Shown: in pieces, positions 8,945 through 10,518 of the stretch
Numbering within the stretch: the stretch's first letter is position 1
Layout of the letters: each line of letters starts with the position of its first letter
NCBI GenBank assembly: GCA_028351415.1
Contig: JAOMJV010000009.1
Location: forward strand, 1 to 39,979
DNA length: 39,979 bases
Direction: 5' to 3'
DNA from: Candidatus Nitrosopumilus sp.
GTDB taxonomy: Archaea; Thermoproteota; Nitrososphaeria; Nitrososphaerales; Nitrosopumilaceae
Program-made: the position numbers and the translations under genes
The notes under the pieces: model-generated
What the model was told of the DNA's origin: nothing
The model's database searches: none
What the model saw: only the letters and a program-made list of their open reading frames with translations

Positions 8945-9826
8945 ATGATGTTAAATTATGATGCACCAATGTATAGACCTCCATCAGAGGCTAGATCATT
9001 AATTTTTCAAGTTACACTAGGTTGCTCATTCAATGAGTGTTCATTTTGTGATATGTATAGATCAAAAGAATATTCAGAGAGATCATGGGATGATGTTAAG
9101 GCTGAAATTGATATGATGGCAAATTATGTACCAGATACAAAGAGAATATTTCTTGCAGATGGTGATGCATTAAATCTTGATTCTGAATATATGATTAAAA
9201 TTTTAAAATACATCAAAGAAAAATTTCCAAATATTGAAAGAATTTCATGCTATGCAATGCCTATGAATATTTTGAAAAAAACACCAGAGGAATTAAAAAA
9301 AATGAATGATGCAGGATTAGATATGTTTTATCTAGGAATTGAAAGTGGTTCAGACATTGTTTTGAAAAAAGTAACTAAAGGTGCGGTTGCAAAAACAATT
9401 ATCAAATCTGTCAATAAAGCAAAGGAAGCAGGCTACATTATGTCATGTATGGTGATTTTAGGATTAGGTGGAAAAAAATATTCAAAGGAACACATCAAAG
9501 GAACTGCAGAAGTGATCAGTGCATGTTCACCAAATTATGTTGGTGCATTAACACTTTATCTAGAAAATGGAATCAAACAAGAATTTATTGATAAATACAA
9601 AGGAGAATTTGTTAAAATAAATGATGACGAGGGATTAGAAGAGCTTTATGAGTTGGTCAATCAAATTAATACAAAAGAAAAAATTGTATTTAGAGTAAAT
9701 CACGGTTCAAACGCATATACCGTGAAAGGCACATTCCCGCAAGATAAACAAGAAATGCTAGAGAAAGTAGAATGGATGAAAGATCATCCAGAGATTGTAC
9801 GTCCTCAAGGAATTAGAGGATTTTAA
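8945..9826 (+). CDS. Radical SAM protein
   Basis: A 293-residue radical S-adenosylmethionine enzyme. The [4Fe-4S] cysteines are C27, C32 and C35 in GCSFNECSFCDMY. This is CX4CX2C rather than the commoner CX3CX2C, a spacing known in a subgroup of COG1032-type proteins with CSHNxCxFC motifs. The TIM-barrel glycine and SAM motifs follow (FLADGDAL, LGIESGSD, LGLGG). There is no B12-binding or TRAM domain. The substrate is unknown. It stands alone, divergent from the RNase H gene, and ends in a T-tract. Confidence 0.88.
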   Translation: MMLNYDAPMYRPPSEARSLIFQVTLGCSFNECSFCDMYRSKEYSERSWDDVKAEIDMMANYVPDTKRIFLADGDALNLDSEYMIKILKYIKEKFPNIERISCYAMPMNILKKTPEELKKMNDAGLDMFYLGIESGSDIVLKKVTKGAVAKTIIKSVNKAKEAGYIMSCMVILGLGGKKYSKEHIKGTAEVISACSPNYVGALTLYLENGIKQEFIDKYKGEFVKINDDEGLEELYELVNQINTKEKIVFRVNHGSNAYTVKGTFPQDKQEMLEKVEWMKDHPEIVRPQGIRGF

Positions 9827-9843: not shown

Positions 9844-9880
9844 AAAATCAGAATAATTCTTGAAAGGATTAAGAATAAAC

Positions 9881-10080
9881 CCTGCCTATTGCATACCCGC
9901 TCCAAGAGTATCGTGCCCGTACACAATAGGCAACCTAAGCATGCCATACATGCATTAGATAACAAATTATTTTTCATACCTACATTAATTGATTAAGAAT
10001 GTCACTGGTAACCGAAGTTACCAGCGGAGAATTATTTTGTTTCGTAACCGAAGTCACTAACATACAATAACCAATTCTCG
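9881..10080 (-). ncRNA. Candidate structured small RNA of unknown class
   Basis: The gap 9827-10260 has no convincing gene but folds strongly on the minus strand. In transcript order: stem GAGAATT/AATTCTC (10073-10079 with 10027-10033) encloses a GUGAC-UUCG-GUUAC hairpin (10044-10057). A directly abutting 10-bp hairpin with a C(UUCG)G tetraloop follows (10003-10026), then GCATG/CATGC (9939-9953), then a 15-bp helix (9919-9933 with 9882-9896). Five positions that would be A.C mismatches on the plus strand become G.U on the minus strand, which fixes the strand. A TATA-like TTCATAAAATTA (about 10096-10109) could start the RNA near 10077. No RNase P, SRP, 5S or riboswitch signature was found. Confidence 0.6.
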
Positions 10081-10140
10081 TGGCGTGCAAATTGTAATTT
10101 TATGAATTCATGAGTTTACAAAAATGTTGTTGTTTGATTA

Positions 10141-10260: not shown

Positions 10261-10518
10261 TTATAAATTCTCAATTACAGATTTTAAATTTTCAGGTAAT
10301 TCAGGTAATTCAGTATGACTTTCATTATTTTGAAGAACCTCAGGCCCTATTCGTCTTACTATCTGAGTTGCAATTAGAGTGTCAATATTTCTTTGAATAT
10401 ATTTTTCACTCATAATGGTTTTTAATTTTTCAAAAACAATTTCCTCATTTTCATATTTTTTAATTCCGTATTGAACTAAGATAGTTTGTTCAGTAGATGA
10501 AAATTCAGTCATAGCCAT
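10261..10518 (-). CDS. Small soluble protein, unknown function
   Basis: I do not recognise this 85-residue protein. It is helical, with a pattern that could be a small winged-helix or helix-turn-helix fold (SSTEQTILVQYGIKK, then IQRNIDTLIATQIVRRIG). A polar, Pro/Glu-rich stretch follows before a final short helix. There is no cysteine or membrane segment. ATGs at 10518 and 10512 are both possible starts. A TATA-like CTTTAATTTTAAAT lies just upstream. It is divergent from the membrane protein at 10570. Confidence 0.6.
   Translation of the reverse strand: MAMTEFSSTEQTILVQYGIKKYENEEIVFEKLKTIMSEKYIQRNIDTLIATQIVRRIGPEVLQNNESHTELPELPENLKSVIENL

Follow-up and report, generated by a model that had tools for sequence, protein, structure and literature searches.

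Within the window (the whole 39,979-nucleotide stretch analyzed here), a gap is flanked by a radical SAM gene (8945-9826, plus strand) and a small gene (10261-10518, minus strand). A first-pass annotation had read positions 9881-10080 of this gap as a structured non-coding RNA on the minus strand. Re-examination recovered every helix that it had named, among them a 15-bp helix (9882-9896 with 9919-9933) and two UUCG hairpins (minus-strand loops 10013-10016 and 10049-10052), and at all five positions singled out as evidence of strand (9882-9933, 9892-9923, 9893-9922, 10004-10025 and 10046-10055) an A.C mismatch on the plus strand corresponds to a G.U pair on the minus strand. The predicted folding energy of 9871-10090 is -66.9 kcal/mol for the minus strand (shuffles -50.4 +/- 3.6; z -4.6) and -51.2 kcal/mol for the plus strand (z -4.2); since both are low, energy alone gives no confident choice of strand, which comes instead from comparison with relatives.

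The same comparison replaced the single RNA of about 200 nt proposed earlier with two adjoining units whose distributions across the phylogeny are unlike. When the whole gap was compared by blast with 95 congeneric genomes, two independently occurring blocks emerged, one from ~10140 to 9980 and the other from ~9975 to 9863 in window coordinates. These blocks lie ~1 kb apart on opposite strands in genome G089 and on different contigs in G085, indicating that RNA-A and RNA-B, as we term the units, are separate. The earlier boundaries also fell short of the conserved 5′ end of RNA-A, which begins ~13 nt further 5′, at ~10093. The resulting features, delimited for RNA-A with a first covariance model (R1) and a second built from 13 more distant members (R3), are as follows.

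10115..10124, minus strand: TATA-like box TTTTTGTAAA, putative RNA-A promoter; box center ~28 nt before TTTGCACGCC
9995..10093, minus strand: RNA-A, whole unit; covariance match 10091-9995 with models R1 and R3
10082..10091, minus strand: nearly invariant 5′ segment UUUGCACGCC, also the probable att core of integrative elements
10027..10079, minus strand: hairpin P1/P2; P1 10079-10073 with 10033-10027, P2 10057-10053 with 10048-10044, loop UUCG
10003..10026, minus strand: hairpin P3; 10026-10017 with 10012-10003, cUUCGg tetraloop
9995..10002, minus strand: 3′ tail ACAUUCUU, T-rich in relatives, possible terminator
9873..9974, minus strand: RNA-B, second structured unit; hairpin 9958-9949 with 9943-9935 and a 14-15 bp hairpin 9933-9919 with 9896-9882

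RNA-B (model R2) was found in 8 of 250 genomes, as five distinct sequences representing only three divergent forms. All cells of its alignment are paired, three pairs carry changes on both sides and 11 G.U but no A.C cells occur; sliding the partners lowers pairing to 19-46%. The covariation is not significant, with shuffles doing as well in 88 of 500 cases. RNA-B is likely a second small RNA with a conserved stable structure, and as it follows RNA-A by ~20 nt in the window, a joint transcript of the two is possible. In G132, which belongs to another genus, 23 nt match the beginning of RNA-B (L032 1494-1555); this hit was set aside because it lacks the RNA-B structure, and it overlaps the start of an open reading frame.

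Conservation and covariation of RNA-A

Read from 5′ to 3′, RNA-A comprises UUUGCACGCC, the long P1/P2 hairpin, the UUCG hairpin P3 and an ACAUU tail. An alignment of 15 copies displays an upstream stretch of ~45 nt with the TATA-like box, an invariant TTTGCACGCC, the paired regions and an ACATT tail, and copies at different loci share these ~45 nt and the RNA but little else. The TATA-like box stays with RNA-A at different loci (L008-L014, L026), whereas the sequence further upstream diverges, and T-rich positions recur at -34 to -30 across 93 non-redundant core sites. We infer that the box may be the RNA-A promoter, and at sites with a divergent recombinase gene it could belong partly to that gene. 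Among 54 RNA-A members, TTTGCACG is exact in 50 and ACAT falls within the last 12 nt of 51. In most relatives the 5′ end forms a hairpin with an AUUGG/CCAA stem and UUUGCACG as its loop; another group has a CAGG/CCUG stem, a paired change, and window-type RNA-A has lost the left arm (ACAA).

Model R1 matches 29 of 250 Nitrosopumilaceae genomes; R3, whose weak matches depend largely on the 5′ segment, matches 78 of the 250 at E <= 0.05, in six genera. A class-wide search returned nothing outside Nitrosopumilaceae, and plasmid records gave no match. The Rfam scan proposed in the first-pass annotation identified four tRNAs in the window and nothing in the 9881-10080 region, and RNA-A matched no family of Rfam 15 at gathering or relaxed thresholds. 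No reading frame is conserved among the members, in which the longest closed frames span 6-28 aa and vary in length. The gene after RNA-A lies on the opposite strand in nearly all members, and the flanking genes differ. The gap beside the radical SAM gene, where orthologs had been expected, is common only to a small clade, and the family otherwise occupies different loci, mostly near argS.

Covariance modeling of the relatives revealed covariation for RNA-A. In an alignment of 13 sequences, 97.9% of cells are paired and eight pairs show double changes, against a shuffle mean of 2.7. A larger alignment of 56 model matches, in which fitting to the model inflates pair counts and two rows are opposite-strand echoes of palindromes, has 94.5% of cells paired as compared with 68.6% in shuffles (0 of 500 as high) and changes on both sides in 29 of 30 pairs; when partners are slid, pairing falls to 33-58%. 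Both-side changes occur there in every pair of P1 and P2 and in 9 of the 10 pairs of P3, which is 98.4% paired. The ratio of G.U to A.C cells on the minus (sense) strand is 53 to 2 in the smaller alignment and 141 to 20 in the larger, extending the initial five-position argument to the whole family. Members folded one by one form the same hairpins in most cases. YNMG and UUCG loops are stabilizing in RNA but not in DNA; the P3 tetraloop is of the YNMG type in 25 of 38 cases, 23 of them cUUCGg. Together, these alignments indicate that single-strand folding of RNA-A on the minus strand is under selection. RNA-A displays the conserved minus-strand RNA secondary structure of an archaeal small RNA gene, which backs the original reading of a non-coding RNA that would be transcribed from this strand.

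The RNA-A 5′ core as an attachment site

The 5′ core of RNA-A, (GG)TTTGCACG(CC), appears to serve a second role as an att site. The 12-mer GGTTTGCACGCC is present in 119 of 250 genomes, usually as one copy, and a reversed control is found almost nowhere. The sequence right of the core varies: it may be an RNA-A body, a short hairpin set directly against the stop codon of argS, or a third type marked by a CCAA...TTGG repeat. Direct core repeats occur 1.4-24 kb apart in several genomes. A 14-base pattern run against all genomes and, separately, against viral contigs was less informative, as the pattern is too short and, among the matches listed, most were chance bacterial ones.

In G036, a 398-aa open reading frame begins 54 bp left of the core and contains the motifs HGFRKR, GHK and Y. 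Its Phage_int_SAM_5 match is below threshold, its homolog in G015 has none, and the H-x-x-R, GH and Y motifs were read by eye; the motifs and the sub-threshold match suggest a divergent tyrosine recombinase. All eight close homologs with at least 52% identity and an intact N-terminus, some of them broken, that were found in 95 genomes (G036, G066, G040, G092, G015, G043, G067 and G091) start 51-55 bp from a core. Two direct core copies beside argS in G040 (contig C96 4512-14937, L499) bound a 10.4-kb element that has an RNA-A body at its left end, then cargo, then the recombinase at its right end; the core and argS follow. G036 has a 20.5-kb element of the same layout between direct cores beside argS, with the third body type at the left end. 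The argS site of G027 carries no element; its core, body and argS match those on the right of G040. The elements between direct cores, the adjacency of the recombinase and the empty G027 site all indicate, from genome comparison, that the core is the attachment site of tyrosine-recombinase elements beside argS.

Conservation of the core can be explained by recombination wherever a recombinase exists. The window contains neither a recombinase nor a second core and nonetheless keeps the core itself, and other genomes with window-type RNA-A (G000, G003, G012, G018, G061, G080 and others) similarly have no close recombinase yet retain the exact core and the compensatory structure.

As judged from its translations, the cargo of the G040 element seemingly includes a HicAB-like pair and GHKL-ATPase-like and metallo-beta-lactamase-like genes.

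Nature of RNA-A and competing explanations

Taking these observations together, we consider it reasonably probable that RNA-A is a small non-coding RNA of ~95-120 nt encoded on the minus strand, representing a new Nitrosopumilaceae family in which the 5′ end also serves as a target for integration. Transcription would start from the TATA-like box ~28 nt upstream. The RNA would begin with the exposed, nearly invariant UUUGCACGCC, which would form the loop of a 5′-terminal hairpin in most members. The RNA may act in trans, either as a small RNA or as the RNA component of a small particle; UUUGCACG would contact a protein or RNA partner, and the hairpins, together with the U-rich end, would act as scaffold and terminator. 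Tyrosine-recombinase elements beside argS would have adopted the 5′ end of the RNA-A gene as their att site, and because each appears to bring along an RNA body of its own beside the core, integration would swap promoter halves and bodies without destroying the gene. The window copy would be a stationary descendant, with RNA-B as a putative second small RNA just downstream.

Two candidate targets of the 5′ segment were considered and rejected. Antisense matches to GGCGTGCAA in 18 genomes fell mostly in coding regions and shared no common start-codon site. For 23S rRNA, an exact 8-nt complement, CGUGCAAA, was also obtained in 31 of 300 shuffles, which is near chance. In the 23S rRNA of G006 and G003 (L495, L496), CGUGCAAA lies in a stretch predicted to be unpaired.

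The main rival holds that the feature is folded single-stranded DNA, an attC-like recombination site that ends modules beside argS and has no function as RNA. Association of the core with one recombinase subfamily fits this idea, as do modules flanked by structured bodies (in G020, for example, an SDF symporter gene lies between two RNA-A copies) and the retention of structure over sequence; the strand bias is compatible with any single strand. Nevertheless, we regard it as unlikely, if worth serious consideration. Structure and core persist in many genomes with no close recombinase, a TATA-like box recurs at fixed spacing, the tetraloops counted here are of a kind generally understood to favor RNA over DNA, and the conserved ends do not pair with one another as attC core sites do. 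By inspection, UUUGCACGCC and ACAUU do not pair, and the RYYYAAC/GTTRRRY end boxes of integron attC are absent. A variant that grants the elements use of the folded strand, or of the RNA itself, during integration, so that modules would be captured beside argS in an integron-like manner with an RNA-A-type site as the address of each, strikes us as somewhat more doubtful.

Less likely again is the proposal that only the core is conserved, as an att or dif-like site in duplex form, the neighboring hairpins being ordinary terminators between convergent genes. Elements are indeed flanked by direct core copies, a convergent gene adjoins most sites, and in several genomes the stop codon of argS directly borders a P3-like hairpin, but a site used as duplex would not be expected to show compensatory changes with G.U pairs on one strand, and a terminator has no need of P1/P2. 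A chromosomal dif was rejected specifically: ~0.31-0.44 of the chromosome separates the site from cdc6 (0.05 in G112), several genomes have at least two sites and up to four copies occur per genome, and this position off the terminus and multiplicity argue against a terminus dif.

We consider it very unlikely that RNA-A is a cis-acting leader or 3′-end element of a neighboring gene: a same-strand gene follows in three or four members (the SDF gene of G020 is 182 nt downstream), but in nearly all others the next gene is on the opposite strand, which makes a leader or riboswitch role improbable, and the neighbors differ. A diverged RNase P, SRP, C/D or H/ACA guide RNA is hardly credible. The size and structure of RNA-A suit a stable RNA and an ACA follows P3, but even relaxed Rfam thresholds give no match (H/ACA families scoring only far below threshold), an exact C box (RUGAUGA) is found in none of 54 members and a near C box together with the D box CUGA in one, and P3 is continuously paired, with no internal pocket.

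Four observations favor the small-RNA reading even though the core is used by mobile elements. Duplex DNA sites do not require structure on one strand with G.U pairs; UUCG loops suit RNA; genomes lacking a close recombinase keep core and compensatory structure; and copies at different loci conserve a promoter-sized upstream stretch with the RNA and little else.

Relation to known systems

Like archaeal intergenic small RNAs (PMC3432209), RNA-A is short, structured and intergenic, has an upstream TATA-like box and lacks a reading frame; it differs from them in the unusual strength of its structural conservation and its linkage to an att site, and in being known here from its sequence alone. Tan1, a 229-nt RNA of marine group II Euryarchaeota with demonstrated expression (PMC5069720), is likewise a structured RNA of unassigned type from an abundant marine archaeon, but belongs to another phylum and is about twice as long.

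Thaumarchaeal integrated elements likewise place a tyrosine recombinase at a conserved RNA gene, such as a tRNA gene, and leave short direct repeats (PMC6563490), whereas here the core occupies the 5′ end of an RNA that is not a tRNA, next to argS, a gene not among the targets named in the main text of that survey. In the literature searched, we found no account of RNA-A or of argS as an integration target. Integron attC sites and archaeal integrons (PMC9668308) resemble RNA-A in their palindromic single-strand folds, similar length and position next to cargo, and the integrase gene is likewise directed away from the core; RNA-A differs in having two stacked hairpins and no R′′/R′ core boxes pairing at its ends, and the putative recombinase may not be an IntI. 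Archaeal Xer/dif sites share short inverted arms around a spacer with the core, which nonetheless lies off the terminus, often in more than one copy, and has an 8-bp rather than a 6-bp spacer (PMC2958812). Thaumarchaea are reported to lack xerA (PMC2958812), and another system is therefore expected in them.

The case for RNA-A as a previously unlisted, strongly conserved family in ammonia-oxidizing archaea appears well supported by these comparisons. Nitrosopumilaceae rank among the most abundant marine archaea, and the open literature searched describes few regulatory RNAs from them. The family offers a nearly invariant putative contact sequence, and because relatives occur in complete genomes, its expression and partners are directly testable. 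Naming an integration hotspot beside argS and its recombinase subfamily should also aid in delimiting genomic islands.

Several further core sites were noted. In G020 (contig C36 126-5884; L075, L171), three tandem core sites enclose the SDF symporter gene and genes that look arsenic-related by eye, resembling cassette-like modules with no recombinase of their own; the 446-aa open reading frame between two RNA-A copies there, initially taken for an integrase, is the SDF symporter. Two cores of G013 (contig C20, L502) lie 15 kb apart around ABC-transporter-like and ETF-protein-like genes, in what may be either an element or chromosome. The third type of body, located to the right of the core (CCAAATACTGTTTACCGAGTATTGGCTACGCATG; L205, L206, L208, L209, L211, L212) has an inverted repeat resembling the start of RNA-A and is probably the element-side arm of the att site. 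Finally, in three genomes of other genera (G124, G097 and G178; L218, L217 and L150), a single strong hairpin (CCAGAAGG...TTTCTGG) comes after the core, in the first two at a common locus that is not argS, and this arrangement probably represents a sister RNA type.
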